From NCBI GenBank assembly GCA_018661465.1, contig JABJIC010000015.1, positions 1 through 64,000 on the forward strand: a DNA stretch of 64,000 bases, given 5' to 3'. This DNA comes from Gammaproteobacteria bacterium. Its GTDB lineage: Bacteria; Pseudomonadota; Gammaproteobacteria; Pseudomonadales; Pseudohongiellaceae. The notes under the pieces are model-generated. The model was not told where the DNA came from and did not search any database. It saw nothing but the letters and a program-made list of their open reading frames with translations. Below, piece by piece: positions 19,346 through 27,748 of the stretch (position 1 is the stretch's first letter; each line of letters opens with the position of its first letter). Made by a program: the position numbers and the translations under genes.

Positions 19346-19840
19346 CTAGCCTGTGCCTACATATGGAATCAAACGACCGCAGAGCAAGACGACAGTCCAT
19401 GTGATCAAGGACGTATAAGCAACGAATTTTGCGATAGGGGGTGGATTGGCATCCGGATCCCAGCCATGAATCACTGGGTTTATCTTCCAGTAATACAACA
19501 ATGCATTTAGTCCCGCGATCACTATTAATACCATCTTTATCTGAAAACCAATGTTGATTGAATAACGCATCGGGTCGCCAATAAAGAAGAGTGCTCCGGT
19601 GATCAGGTTAAGTGCGAAGCCAATGAATACGAACGGCAACAACTGATGAGTCCCTACCTGATTTAGTGCCCTGAAATGACCGGCCATACGCAGATCGATA
19701 ACGATCAAACCACCAAGTAGAAGTGAGAGCCCGATGAAATGGATGATCTCAAGTATTGGCCATAGCCAGTATGTGAGTAGTATCCACTGACTCAGTGAAG
19801 TTTCGGCTAGTGATAAGGAAAAAGATTCCAACATAATCAT
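19346..19840 (-). CDS. DUF6644-like polytopic membrane protein (second of a tandem pair)
   Basis: A 164-residue protein with four predicted membrane helices. The segment YWLWPILEIIHFIGLSLLLGGLIVIDLRMAGHF and the C-terminal CGRLIPYVGTG match the tandem neighbour at 19847-20338, which has LWAYPILLAIHIVGLAIVVG and GRLIAYI. A histidine in the first helix is conserved in both. Such proteins resemble DUF6644 membrane proteins. The two genes are six bases apart, so they probably form one transcript and a heteromeric complex. Possible roles include haem or quinone binding, but this is not shown by sequence. Confidence 0.7.
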   Translation of the reverse strand: MIMLESFSLSLAETSLSQWILLTYWLWPILEIIHFIGLSLLLGGLIVIDLRMAGHFRALNQVGTHQLLPFVFIGFALNLITGALFFIGDPMRYSINIGFQIKMVLIVIAGLNALLYYWKINPVIHGWDPDANPPPIAKFVAYTSLITWTVVLLCGRLIPYVGTG

Positions 19841-19846
19841 CCCTAC

Positions 19847-20338
19847 TCAGATGTAGGCTATTAGACGGCCAGCAACAATCGCAGCCATCCAAAGTAAAAG
19901 TGAAACCAGAGCGATGTATTTTGTCGAATCGCTAATAGCGTAGTCCGCGTTATTGGCTTCAGCAGCACTTGCAGAATCGATCGCAAGTTCACCTCGTAAT
20001 CGAGACTGAATAATCCCCGCCAGGACCATCCCGGCGATAATGGCGGCAATTTTCAGCAGAAACGGAACATTACCAACAAAGGTTACTGCTTGAGAAGTAA
20101 ATAGAAGAATTCCGGAAATAGCGTTAATAATGAAACCAATCCAGGCCATCTTGCTTAGAGGCAAAAATGCGGCGGGATGAATACCGGGAAACATTCCCAA
20201 TAGACGCAGATCGCGCATTGAGAATATGCCCACCACAATCGCCAGGCCGACAATGTGAATGGCTAGCAGTATTGGATAAGCCCATAGTGATTCCGCTACC
20301 CACATAGCGATAGAGCTAGACTCAAGCCTGAGAAACAT
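19847..20338 (-). CDS. DUF6644-like polytopic membrane protein (first of a tandem pair)
   Basis: A 163-residue protein with four predicted helices: SLWAYPILLAIHIVGLAIVVG, MAWIGFIINAISGILLF, LLKIAAIIAGMVLAGII and YIALVSLLLWMAAIVAGRLIAYI. It is related to the neighbour downstream, and both carry a histidine in the first helix and a GRLI ending, so they look like paralogues after a tandem duplication. The start ATG has AGGGGG nine bases upstream. The variable loop with ASAAEANNADYAI is longer than in the partner. Confidence 0.72.
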   Translation of the reverse strand: MFLRLESSSIAMWVAESLWAYPILLAIHIVGLAIVVGIFSMRDLRLLGMFPGIHPAAFLPLSKMAWIGFIINAISGILLFTSQAVTFVGNVPFLLKIAAIIAGMVLAGIIQSRLRGELAIDSASAAEANNADYAISDSTKYIALVSLLLWMAAIVAGRLIAYI

Positions 20339-21073: not shown

Positions 21074-21949
21074 CTAACGAGCCAGCATGGCCACCAGTAG
21101 CTTAACTTGAGCATCGTCCAGACGTTTGCCAAAGGCAGGCATTACGCCATTTCTACCGGAGGCAATTGAAGCCTGAATTTCTTCCAACTCACCACCGTAT
21201 AACCAAATATCATCTGCCAAGTTAGGCGCGCCCAGCAGGATATTGCCACTACCATCTACACCATGACAGGCAGAACAGTTTTGGTCGTAAGCAGCTTTGC
21301 CAGCATGAGTTTCGATGCCGTCGTTACCAAGCTGCATAACATAGTCTGCAACCGGCCCAACATTGACCCCGAGTATAGATTCCCACGCCAGCATATTGGC
21401 ATTTCTTCCATTGCGAATTGTCAGCTCGATATCTTGAGCACTGGATCCCCACTGCCAATCAACATCCATTAGATTCGGGAAAATTGACGCCTGACCTCGA
21501 GCGTCAGGACCATGGCAGGTAGAACATTCACGGGCGAAGATACGCTCTGCCGTTTCCATCAGACCCAAGTCATTCTGAATCTCGGCAAGACTGGTGGCCG
21601 CAATGTCAGCCCTTACTTGAGCGAAGCTCTCATTGTAGCCCTCATAGCTCTCGACAAGACGAGAGCCCTGAGACCAATTCAACAAGCCTTTATATGTTCC
21701 GAGCCCGGGATAGAGCATCAAATAGATTATTGAGAAAACCATGGCGGCTAGAATCATCCAAAACCACCAAAGCGGAGGAGCATTCGATCCTTCTCGGAGA
21801 TTGCTATCCCAAACCGGTTCTACTTCGGGCTCCTTTTTTGCATCAGCGGAGAAATAGATGCTGAACACTAGCCAGGCAAGTGTAATTAATCCGACCAGTG
21901 TTAGGACTACAATCCAACCACCCCAAAATCCTGTAGGCAAATCAGCCAT
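21074..21949 (-). CDS. ccoP: cbb3 cytochrome oxidase diheme subunit CcoP
   Basis: A 291-residue membrane-anchored diheme cytochrome c. Starting at the ATG at 21949 (four bases after the ccoQ stop) gives the family N-terminus MADLPTGFWGGWIVVLTL; longer frames carry unrelated residues. Two transmembrane helices (IVVLTLVGLITLAWLVF and FWMILAAMVFSIIYLML) are followed by CSTCHGPDARGQ and CSACHGVDGSGN haem motifs, each with the GxxxMP or MLAWE methionine region. It passes electrons to CcoO/CcoN. No ccoGHIS genes follow; 735 bases of non-coding DNA do. Confidence 0.94.
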   Translation of the reverse strand: MADLPTGFWGGWIVVLTLVGLITLAWLVFSIYFSADAKKEPEVEPVWDSNLREGSNAPPLWWFWMILAAMVFSIIYLMLYPGLGTYKGLLNWSQGSRLVESYEGYNESFAQVRADIAATSLAEIQNDLGLMETAERIFARECSTCHGPDARGQASIFPNLMDVDWQWGSSAQDIELTIRNGRNANMLAWESILGVNVGPVADYVMQLGNDGIETHAGKAAYDQNCSACHGVDGSGNILLGAPNLADDIWLYGGELEEIQASIASGRNGVMPAFGKRLDDAQVKLLVAMLAR

Positions 21950-21953
21950 GATA

Positions 21954-22085
21954 TTAATCGTCCTCCAGTGGTAGGCGTGCAGTTTGGTCAATCTGCTCAT
22001 CATTGCCTCTGTAGCTAAACCAGAGCGCGAGGCCAACCATAAATGCCATCACTAACATGTCGCCAATAAATATAAACATTGTCAT
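21954..22085 (-). CDS. ccoQ: cbb3 oxidase small subunit CcoQ
   Basis: A 43-residue protein in the gap between ccoO and ccoP. It starts MTMFIFIGDMLVMAFMVGLA and continues LWFSYRGNDEQIDQTARLPL, one membrane helix and a short tail, the size and look of CcoQ. Its ATG overlaps the ccoO TGA as ATGA, and the stop lies four bases before the ccoP ATG. Such small subunits stabilise the cbb3 complex. Confidence 0.85.
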   Translation of the reverse strand: MTMFIFIGDMLVMAFMVGLALWFSYRGNDEQIDQTARLPLEDD

Positions 22086-22711
22086 AGTGTCTGCTCCTCA
22101 CTCAGCCCGGTGCCGAGCATTTGCAAATACGCTATCAGGGCATCAATCTCTTTCAAGCCTTCCAATTGCTCGGGAGCTGATGCAATTTCTTCGTCACTAT
22201 AGGGATGGCCAAGAAACTTAAGCCCGCTCATCTTCGCTGAGATATCTCCAGCTTGCGTGGCATCTCTTTCAGCTAACCAAGGGTAGCCCGGCATAATACT
22301 TTTGCTTACCACTTCTCGCGGATCAATCAGATGTATTCGATGCCAATCATCAGAGAATTTTCCTCCGACCCTATGCAAGTCAGGGCCGGTTCGCTTTGAA
22401 CCCCAAAGAAACGGCCTGTCATAAACAAACTCGCCTGCTCTGGAATAAGGCCCATAACGCTCAACTTCTGCAATCAGTGGTCTGATCTGTTGAGAGTGAC
22501 ATACATGGCAGCCTTCGCGGATATAGATGTCTCTTCCGGTCAGTTCAACTGCAGAATAAACACGGGTATTTATTGTCGCTGTTTCCAGGCTTTCCTGGTT
22601 CAAAATCGGCACGATCTGTACTAGACCACCGATAGACGAAACCACGAGAATTCCAAAAATTAGCAGACCAATGTTTTCTTCGATCTTCTTGTGTAATGAA
22701 AGTCCACTCAT
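22082..22711 (-). CDS. ccoO: cbb3 cytochrome oxidase monoheme subunit CcoO
   Basis: A 209-residue c-type cytochrome anchored by one N-terminal helix (NIGLLIFGILVVSSIGGLVQIV). The haem motif is CHVCHSQQIRP, with REGCHVCH typical of CcoO, and VGGKFSDDWHRIHLIDP follows as in the family. A methionine ligand probably lies in SIMPGYPW. Its start overlaps the ccoN stop as ATGA (22711/22708) and its stop overlaps ccoQ, so the operon is tightly coupled. Confidence 0.95.
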   Translation of the reverse strand: MSGLSLHKKIEENIGLLIFGILVVSSIGGLVQIVPILNQESLETATINTRVYSAVELTGRDIYIREGCHVCHSQQIRPLIAEVERYGPYSRAGEFVYDRPFLWGSKRTGPDLHRVGGKFSDDWHRIHLIDPREVVSKSIMPGYPWLAERDATQAGDISAKMSGLKFLGHPYSDEEIASAPEQLEGLKEIDALIAYLQMLGTGLSEEQTL

Positions 22712-24147
22712 GAGGCAACTCCATAGGCGGGGTCGACCGCCGGAATCTGAACCTTAACGGCATGTCGCCCCTTAAGAGTCATGAATAAATTAAATGCCAT
22801 CAGTACTGTGCCTCCGAGGAAAATCAAGCCTGCAATAAGACGCAGCCCGTAGAAAGGAGCCATACTTGCCATGATGTCCTTGAAGCTAAAACTGAGCTCG
22901 CCAATTTCATCGACGCTTAACCAAAGCAGGCCCTGGGAAACACCTGCACCCCACATAGCCATGACATAAAGCATAGTGCCAGCCAGCGCCAACCAGAAAT
23001 GAATATTGGCCAGACGCACACTGTAAAGATCAACACCAACCAGCCTTGGTACTAGATAGTAAAACGTGCCGTAGGTGATCATCGCGTTCCAGCCCAATGC
23101 ACCGGAGTGTACGTGGCCGATAGTCCAATCGGTAAAATGGCTGACAACGTTGACGCTTGGGAAGGCCATCATCGGTCCTTCGAATGTTGCAAGACCATAG
23201 AACGCTAGAGATAGTACGATAAACTTCAGAGCTGGATCGGTTTTCAGTTTTTCCCAGGCTGTACTCACCGTCATGATGCCATTAATCATGCTTGCCCAAG
23301 ACGGTGCTAACAGAACCACACTCATCACCATTCCCAGAGACTGTACCCATTCCGGAATCGCACTGTAGTGAAGATGGTGAGGTCCAGCCCAGATATAGCT
23401 GTAAACGAATGCCCAGAATGCCACTACTGAAAGCCGATAACTCCAGATTGGCCGCTCGGCATGTTTAGGTAAGAAGTAATACATCATTCCGAGAAATCCA
23501 CCGGTGAGTAGAAAACCCACTGCATTATGTCCATACCACCATTGAACGACAGCATCCTGTGCTCCGGCGAAGATTGAATAAGACTTTGTTGGACTAACAG
23601 GAATGGCCAGGTTATTTACGATGTGTAACATGGCAACTACAATTATCAAAGCACCGTAGAACCAGTTTGAAATGTAAATTTGCTTGATTTTGCGAGTCGC
23701 TAGTGTGCCGAAAAATACTACCGCGAAGGCCACCCAGACGATGGTTATTGCAATATCCCAAGGCCACTCAAGTTCGGCGTACTCTTTAGACGTGTTTAGA
23801 CCAGCCAACAAGGAGAGGCCTCCTGTTAGCACTACTATTTGCCAGGCATAACAAACAAACCAGGCTAACTTCGGCGCAAACAACTGAACATGAGAAGTTC
23901 GCTGAACACTGTAAAAGGCCGTAGCCATTAATGCGGACACACCAAAGCCAAAGACAATGCCGTTGGTGTGAAGCGGCCTGAGTCGGCCAAACGATAGCCA
24001 GAACTGCCCAAAATCAATTGTCGGCCAGATAAGTTCGGCGGCGATATACACACCTGCCACCATTGCCAGAACTGCCCAGACCACTGAAAACTGGATCAGC
24101 CTAATTACAATCTTATCGTGATAAATGTTTGTACTTGCTTCGCTCAT
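22708..24147 (-). CDS. ccoN: cbb3 cytochrome oxidase catalytic subunit CcoN
   Basis: A 479-residue haem-copper oxidase subunit with about twelve helices. Ligand motifs are RPLHTNGIVFGFG (low-spin haem), WWYGHNAVGFLL (CuB histidine and the crosslinked Tyr pattern of C-family oxidases), GPHHLHYSAIP (CuB pair) and WTIGHVHSGALGWN (haem ligands). Length is normal for CcoN. It is the proton- and electron-coupled terminal oxidase, of high oxygen affinity in characterised relatives. It lies 119 bases after a Yip1-family gene; the putative FNR promoter upstream of that gene likely drives both. Confidence 0.95.
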   Translation of the reverse strand: MSEASTNIYHDKIVIRLIQFSVVWAVLAMVAGVYIAAELIWPTIDFGQFWLSFGRLRPLHTNGIVFGFGVSALMATAFYSVQRTSHVQLFAPKLAWFVCYAWQIVVLTGGLSLLAGLNTSKEYAELEWPWDIAITIVWVAFAVVFFGTLATRKIKQIYISNWFYGALIIVVAMLHIVNNLAIPVSPTKSYSIFAGAQDAVVQWWYGHNAVGFLLTGGFLGMMYYFLPKHAERPIWSYRLSVVAFWAFVYSYIWAGPHHLHYSAIPEWVQSLGMVMSVVLLAPSWASMINGIMTVSTAWEKLKTDPALKFIVLSLAFYGLATFEGPMMAFPSVNVVSHFTDWTIGHVHSGALGWNAMITYGTFYYLVPRLVGVDLYSVRLANIHFWLALAGTMLYVMAMWGAGVSQGLLWLSVDEIGELSFSFKDIMASMAPFYGLRLIAGLIFLGGTVLMAFNLFMTLKGRHAVKVQIPAVDPAYGVAS

Positions 24148-24155
24148 CTATACTC

Positions 24156-24196
24156 TCTGAATAAGTAGTTCTAAATAAAAGGTCTGAATAAAAAGT
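24156..24196. repeat. 14-bp degenerate tandem repeat, three copies
   Basis: TCTGAATAAGTAGT, TCTAAATAAAAGGT and TCTGAATAAAAAGT follow each other between the Yip1-family gene and ccoN, just upstream of the ccoN start. Confidence 0.7.
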
Positions 24197-24266
24197 TATA
24201 AAAGTGTGCTGAATATTCTGCTTGGCTAAGTTTTCTACTCTCAGTCTTTCTTAATCATTTTCTTTC

Positions 24267-25017: not shown

Positions 25018-25060
25018 ATTATAGTTAGCCTCGAGGGCTAAAACAATTGATCTGCCTCAA
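25018..25060 (-). promoter_or_regulatory. Putative class II FNR/Anr-type promoter
   Basis: TTGAT-CTGC-CTCAA at 25047-25060 matches the FNR consensus TTGAT-N4-ATCAA at nine of ten positions. A perfect -10 (TATAAT on the minus strand, 25023-25018) follows, placing transcription start near 25011, so the box is centred about 42 bases upstream, the class II position. Its target is the Yip1-ccoNOQP transcript. Confidence 0.65.
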
Positions 25061-26653: not shown

Positions 26654-27748
26654 CTAGGTCCCGTATAGTAATTTCGAGGACGCTATGCCTCGTATCCATT
26701 TATGTGGATGTTTAAAGTCCACACCGGATTTAATTCTGCTTTCATGGAAATGCAGGAGGGAGTCTTCTGATCCTGCTGCAATAGAATAGTGCTTTTGAAA
26801 TGCTGTAATGGATTTCATCCAGGAGTCCGCGGAGATACCTAGATCCTGCAGAATCTTCTGCTTCATCTCTAACGCCTCCAAATTACGACGCTTATCCTGC
26901 TCATTGGAATGAAGAGCCTTGCAAGTATTTTCCAATAAGTCGAAATAGCTCTGCTGACTGACTGGCAATGCATCATCGCTCATAGTGGCCAACTCAGCCA
27001 TCGGCCGCAATTTCGCTTGCTTCCTCACAGTCTGCCGACCGACAAGGTGTTTGGTGTTCTTTCGCGTTAGTAATCGATGTTGGCGATAGCTGCGATTCTT
27101 AACTTTTTTGGCATGATTAATCAGCCGTTCCTGAACCGATGTGAAGTCACTGGCCTCCAGCGACTCGCTAATACCCGCTCTTACGGGGTTCAAGTCTACA
27201 TAGGCCATGCAGGTAACCACTGCCTTTTCATCCAGAAGTGCCTGACTCTTGAAACGCCCTTCCCAGAATCGCCCGCTGCACTCATCTTCTTTATTCGCCC
27301 TGCGTGCGATGGACTCATTAAGACAACGCATAAACCAGCTAATATCCATTAGCCTCTCTCTCCAGAGACTTACGGTGCTGGCCAATTGCTTCTGCGCAGC
27401 TCTGCTTTTCATATTCATGCGCAGTGTTTTTATCAGTGAGGCGTTTCTTGGAAACAGTTCGGTCCAATGCTGAATCACTTCTTCATCCGACCAGGATTCT
27501 GCCTTCTTCTTATTCACAAAGAGCACCAGATGATAATGATTACTCATCACTGCGTAGGCGCAGATATCGATAGAGAATTGTGAAGACAGTTGTTTGATTC
27601 TTGTTACTAGCCACTGTTTTCGATGGTCGAAATTCTGACCGGAGACCGGATCATCGCCACACAAATAGGCGCGACGCACACAACGGGATATGCAGTGATA
27701 GTAGGGAGTATCGTCCAGCGATACTTGTTGATATCGAGCTCTAGTCAC
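26654..27748 (-). CDS. REP-associated tyrosine transposase (RAYT, Y1 family)
   Basis: A 364-residue Y1/IS200-like transposase of the REP-associated class. Family features are YYHCISRCVRRAYLCGDD near residue 20, the HUH motif SNHYHLVLFVNKK near residue 70-77, the FWEGRFKSQALLDE region, and the catalytic tyrosine probably in VTCMAYVDLNPVRAGI near residue 180. An unusually long C-terminal half (lysine-rich, LENTCKALHSNEQDKRRN) follows. The start is GTG within an inverted repeat (27744-27757). RAYTs act on short palindromic REP elements scattered in the genome rather than on their own ends. Confidence 0.87.
   Translation of the reverse strand: MTRARYQQVSLDDTPYYHCISRCVRRAYLCGDDPVSGQNFDHRKQWLVTRIKQLSSQFSIDICAYAVMSNHYHLVLFVNKKKAESWSDEEVIQHWTELFPRNASLIKTLRMNMKSRAAQKQLASTVSLWRERLMDISWFMRCLNESIARRANKEDECSGRFWEGRFKSQALLDEKAVVTCMAYVDLNPVRAGISESLEASDFTSVQERLINHAKKVKNRSYRQHRLLTRKNTKHLVGRQTVRKQAKLRPMAELATMSDDALPVSQQSYFDLLENTCKALHSNEQDKRRNLEALEMKQKILQDLGISADSWMKSITAFQKHYSIAAGSEDSLLHFHESRIKSGVDFKHPHKWIRGIASSKLLYGT

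Follow-up and report, generated by a model that had tools for sequence, protein, structure and literature searches.

A candidate FNR-dependent class II promoter ahead of a yip1-ccoNOQP operon and a possible Yip1-family partner of its cbb3 oxidase

Control of cbb3 oxidases by FNR or Anr is known from other bacteria. The locus described here raises a narrower question: is an oxidase operon that begins with a gene for a Yip1-family membrane protein driven by such a promoter, and does that protein belong to the oxidase? In the window (the whole stretch of 64,000 nucleotides that was analysed), a box resembling an FNR/Anr site and a -10 hexamer on the minus strand are followed by yip1, ccoN, ccoO, a ccoQ-like ORF and ccoP, with some 130 nt of leader separating TATAAT from the yip1 ORF (Table 1). 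Our main explanation, which we hold to be very probable on comparative sequence grounds, is that this is the main, FNR-driven promoter of a yip1-ccoNOQP operon and that Yip1 is a dedicated partner of the oxidase.

Table 1. Positions of the putative promoter elements and of the operon genes in the window
Feature	Positions	Strand	Basis or remark
FNR/Anr-type box TTGAGGCAGATCAA	25047..25060	-	9/10 match to TTGATnnnnATCAA in the window sequence; the form TTGAGnnnGATCAA recurs 5' of yip1 in close relatives
-10 hexamer TATAAT	25018..25023 (25023-25018)	-	23 nt past the box; mostly 21-22 nt in relatives
yip1, Yip1-family membrane protein, 204 aa	24267..24881	-	PF04893, E 6e-17, 62.5 bits (cut-off 28.6)
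ccoN, cbb3 oxidase subunit I	22708..24147	-	TIGR00780, 624 bits (cut-off 583.15)
ccoO	22082..22711	-	TIGR00781, 246.7 bits (cut-off 200.65)
ccoQ-like ORF, 43 aa	21954..22085	-	named by look and by position between ccoO and ccoP
ccoP	21074..21949	-	TIGR00782, 205.2 bits (cut-off 179.95)

The original prediction, an FNR-type box at class II spacing from a perfect TATAAT, was confirmed on the minus strand. The letters TTGAT-CTGC-CTCAA given for the box are those of the plus strand; read on the promoter strand, the box has TTGAG as its distal half-site, a form retained in close relatives. If +1 is assumed to lie 7 nt past the hexamer, the spacing would place the box centre at about -42.5, the position first proposed being near -42. 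By itself, a 9/10 box is not rare in the window, where matches with at most one mismatch occur nine times against 4.2 expected. The window has one instance of a 9/10 box followed at 21–23 nt by a perfect TATAAT, and 200 first-order surrogate windows have none. Genome-wide, 33 TTGAKnnnnMTCAA sites were detected (18 when the pattern was read backwards). A simple ORF call places 16 of the 33 between ORFs, and the TTGAGGCAGATCAA site alone has a 6/6 TATAAT at 20–24 nt on either side. A chance match for the box and -10 pair is ruled out by the surrogate windows together with the conservation described below.

An inverted repeat, TTAGCC-CTCGA-GGCTAA, lies between the box and the -10 (window positions 25025-25041); it was not seen by eye in the printed upstream sequences of relatives. 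Elsewhere in the genome, a TTGATCGACCTCAA box (G000:C11:51088-51101, inside L191) has TATAGT at 21 nt, and a gene that looks DUF6644-like by eye begins 145 nt past it. Two DUF6644 matches below the cut-off were also found in the window at 19346-20338, downstream of ccoP.

The products of ccoN, ccoO and ccoP all score above the curated cut-offs of their cbb3 families, the ccoP score coming from the longer ORF 21074-22036, within which the ATG at 21949 was chosen as the start by eye. CcoN residues 2-461 align with chain A of 3mk7, and the histidines that we take to be metal ligands, as well as the tyrosine of CcoN, are identical in the two proteins. The first gene past the promoter encodes a Yip1-family protein and not CcoN, as predicted, and the stated gap of 119 nt before ccoN proved correct. 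This gap is AT-rich, and it could harbour a separate ccoN promoter, in which case the upstream box would serve yip1 alone. No sigma-70-like site is listed on the minus strand at 24148-24266, in line with the original prediction, in a scan that requires a -35 and therefore misses the proposed class II promoter and any other activator-dependent promoter. The gap is only 5 nt in G012, which favours one transcript, and it ranges from about -4 to 149 nt across 77 loci (extrapolated from alignments). We regard a separate ccoN promoter as improbable and continue with a single yip1-ccoNOQP transcript.

Homologous loci were collected by a Yip1-alignment scan, from which the best 80 of 132 relatives were kept; because all 12 proteins in the alignment came from yip1-ccoN loci, the scan was aimed at this subfamily. 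With this Yip1 query, ccoN lay directly downstream of yip1 in 77 of the best 80 loci; of the other three, L127 and L187 are cut off by a contig edge and L175 is a deletion scar. Clustering of ORFs across 81 loci placed yip1, ccoN, ccoO and ccoP in 63–68 of them, with the next family in 21. The genes upstream vary, a copC-like gene being present in 21 and purA in 19 of the best 80 loci. The box and its spacing also recur upstream of yip1: a box of at least 8/10 with a -10 of at least 4/6 at 21–23 nt was found in 41 of the 75 loci with 400 nt of upstream sequence, while 40 dinucleotide shuffles averaged 1.7 and never exceeded 5. Among 38 boxes of at least 9/10, a hexamer of at least 5/6 stood at 21 nt in 23 cases, at 22 nt in five and at 23 nt in one; each of the other gaps from 0 to 44 had one such case or none. 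The 23-nt gap of the window is at the long end of this range, most relatives having 21.

An ORF resembling a Y1 transposase, which falls slightly short of the Pfam cut-off, lies at window positions 26654-27748; about 20 of the 80 loci have it in the same position upstream of the copC-like gene, which is unusual for a mobile gene. One locus carrying the yip1-ccoN operon, L163, belongs to a record titled as a Klebsiella pneumoniae MAG, probably a mislabelled bin.

Within the genus, 11 of 37 genomes have a yip1 match and nine have ccoN at 81% or more, with yip1 directly 5' of ccoN in all nine. The box is 9/10 in seven of the 11 yip1 genomes and 8/10 in three (G009, G023 and G003); the remaining one, G021, has neither box nor FNR match. 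G009 has a frameshift in yip1 and one TAA counted within the ccoN match, defects that reflect decay or draft error. In G023, yip1 breaks off and is followed by C-terminal ccoP-like sequence, a deletion scar (L175 was taken as this genome, its matched residues and box being identical), and yip1 of G003 (L043) ends prematurely after some 63 residues. G023 and G003 are the two genus genomes in which the ccoN operon at this site is not intact, and yip1 is truncated in both. FNR is represented in G003 by a 46-residue fragment and in G023 by a weak CRP-type match only. Counting drafts, ccoN was found in 8 of 11 FNR-positive genus genomes versus 1 of 26 others.

The regulator on which FNR control depends is present in the genome: the FNR homologue L001 matches NF008365 with 256.6 bits (cut-off 228), and an alignment to 5cvr, a solved FNR, pairs all four of its cluster cysteines (C-X2-C-X5-C plus one further along). 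Several ORFs adjoining this gene look like universal stress proteins. FNR exceeded the cut-off in 46 of the 80 locus genomes (30/40 and 16/40; best 80 of 132 relatives). The box was present at 38 of 45 FNR-positive versus 2 of 28 FNR-negative loci, with a Fisher value of 2.8e-11 that is inflated because the loci are related. For this table, five of the 80 loci with less than 400 nt upstream were dropped, G090 and G127 (below the FNR cut-off) were set aside and G133, with FNR in two pieces, was counted as positive; the box rule differs slightly from that of the shuffle and spacing counts. Keeping the short loci gave 39/47 versus 3/31, and requiring a 9/10 box with a -10 gave 32/45 versus 1/28. 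Seven FNR-positive loci have no box under the rule used. Of the two FNR-negative loci with a box, one is the deletion-scar locus L175; the other, L117, has a very short branch surrounded by FNR-positive rows, and its draft may be incomplete.

A quick method counts only five changes of FNR on the CcoN tree. Three independent pairs on starred branches were available; the box follows FNR in between 0 and 2 of them (mean 1.6) and goes the opposite way in none. With three pairs, the sign test for FNR and box is not significant. A clade of four loci (L128, L131, L134 and L147), inside a starred and otherwise mostly FNR-positive group, has neither FNR nor box and keeps yip1-ccoN.

The boxes of the CRP/FNR family look alike, and besides FNR the genome encodes CRP (351 bits against a cut-off of 266) and a further protein of CRP/FNR type. 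The box might then be bound by CRP or a Dnr-like regulator, and the operon would answer cAMP or nitric oxide. The core of a CRP site differs from that of an FNR site, and 26 of the 28 FNR-negative loci lack the box, with weaker CRP/FNR-type matches persisting in several of these genomes. We therefore give binding by another member of the family little chance, and consider FNR control well supported by the sequence comparisons. When oxygen falls, FNR carrying its cluster would bind the box near -42 and contact RNA polymerase in class II fashion, yielding one transcript from which Yip1 and the high-affinity cbb3 oxidase would be made together. We infer this binding, activation and cotranscription from motif, spacing, conservation and the co-occurrence of FNR with the box, and the reading as a class II FNR promoter is supported to that extent.

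In other families of the order, 17 genomes have a strong ccoN match. Four of them (G039, G046, G047 and G053) encode a distant Yip1 protein, at 27–32% identity, before ccoN, and each has a 9/10 or 10/10 box 5' of yip1, with a weak -10-like hexamer at 21–22 nt by eye. No yip1 lies beside ccoN in the other 13, and 12 of these have a box of at least 8/10 within 500 nt 5' of ccoN, a count made with no shuffle control. Given the box before ccoN in families without yip1, FNR control of ccoN looks ordinary; where yip1 leads the operon, the box stands before yip1. The FNR/Anr part of our reading is ordinary, such control of cbb3 oxidases being already known, and the linkage to Yip1 is less so.

The AlphaFold2 model of Yip1 (mean pLDDT 91.2, pTM 0.86) contains five helices of 23–33 residues and some short ones. 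No PDB sequence matched at E up to 1, and no Foldseek match at E 0.001 or better was obtained. The best VIA-align hit, 6s8g_G of LptB2FGC (Z 5.3 over 87 residues), was rejected as a known fold for the protein, being at chance level for helical models. The missing fold match says nothing on the function of Yip1. Four residues are nearly fixed among the 55 proteins of the group, His112 in 49, His130 in 54, Met169 in 54 and Met171 in 55; the four distant Yip1 proteins have Gly, Gly, Phe, and Tyr or Phe at these positions. It is speculation from the alignment that they might bind metal. No open PMC paper was found for ccoN with Yip1, for Pseudohongiella with cbb3, or for 'Yip1 family' with 'cytochrome oxidase'.

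Alternatively, Yip1 could be a passenger that shares the promoter and plays no part in the oxidase; it might, for instance, be a membrane protein of general stress. The absence of yip1 beside ccoN in 13 of the 17 other-family genomes would fit this, as would PA1190, a Yip1-domain protein of Pseudomonas aeruginosa that is reported to rise under salt combined with low oxygen, an oxidase link being unstated in the passage describing it (PMC11538994). The linkage of yip1 to ccoN at 77 of 80 loci, retained in FNR-negative lineages and next to varied upstream genes, argues against a passenger, as does the truncation of yip1 in G023 and G003. We judge a passenger role rather unlikely. From the gene linkage, we propose instead that Yip1 serves this lineage of the oxidase as a dedicated partner.

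Model bacteria require CcoH and CcoS to make an active cbb3 oxidase. In Rhodobacter capsulatus without CcoH, the assembled complex was not detected, according to a part of PMC8267372, and an extract of PMC7876108 tentatively places the CcoH helix beside CcoN helix 9. We searched for CcoH (PF05751) and CcoS (TIGR00847) in 46 genomes of our choosing: eight of the nine ccoN-bearing genus genomes (G009 was left out), the 17 other-family genomes, which are all those with a strong ccoN match, and 21 of the 80 locus genomes. The yip1-ccoN group in this set has 29 handles for 28 distinct genomes, G071 and G025 being the same by coordinates. No CcoS match and no CcoH-sized match was found in these 28, in a search whose sensitivity is the chief reservation, since it could miss divergent forms, versus CcoH in 16 of 17 (not G054) and CcoS in 16 of 17 (not G049) in the other families (Fisher 2.6e-11 for the absence, uncorrected for relatedness). 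Weak PF05751 matches in long frames of G087 (20.9 bits, 645 aa), G128 (21.0, 569 aa) and G127 (23.0, 549 aa) were not counted as CcoH, although the last reaches the 23-bit cut-off. In the window's genome, to which the CcoG search was confined, there was no match to CcoH, CcoS or CcoG (TIGR02745), again with divergent forms liable to be missed. The DKTGT motif of the CcoI copper ATPase was absent from the window, L190 and L191, which together make up little of the genome.

Because the four other-family genomes with a distant Yip1 before ccoN also have CcoS and a CcoH match (58 of 150 positions in G039), Yip1 is not simply a substitute. We give slightly less than an even chance to a job for Yip1 in the biogenesis or the stability of the complex that contains CcoN, in a lineage without detected CcoH and CcoS. 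More tentative still is the idea that Yip1 is an unrecognised cbb3 biogenesis factor by which a single lineage of gammaproteobacteria replaced CcoH and CcoS, and that it may handle copper, as the nearly fixed His and Met residues would hint. If true, complete-looking oxidase genes with a fixed membrane gene and no detectable CcoH or CcoS would point to an alternative assembly route.

The proposed promoter shares its box and its likely spacing, measured to a predicted start, with the FNR class II promoters of Escherichia coli, and differs from them in its distal half-site, TTGAG. In a section of PMC3688515, the site lies within 4 of -41.5 in 19 of 23 FNR-activated promoters whose start is known, and partial matches are usual among FNR sites. 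Anr boxes are predicted at ccoN in four/five Pseudomonas species in the portion of PMC6588701 available, and an extract of PMC4505428 describes oxygen-dependent activation of the class II reporter FF-41.5 by ANR of P. putida. A predicted box is common to Pseudomonas Anr-ccoNOQP systems and the present locus, where the first gene past it is yip1 and not ccoN. The structural genes are those of systems that combine ccoNOQP with ccoGHIS, and CcoN aligns with 3mk7; unlike those systems, the group has no CcoS or CcoH-sized match and the window's genome no CcoG match. Campylobacter jejuni has homologues of CcoG, CcoH, CcoI and CcoS, and its CcoX, CcoY and CcoZ are lineage-specific, encoded beside the oxidase genes and required for full activity, as given in a part of PMC8267372. 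By description, yip1 resembles these genes as an extra, lineage-specific gene beside those of the oxidase.
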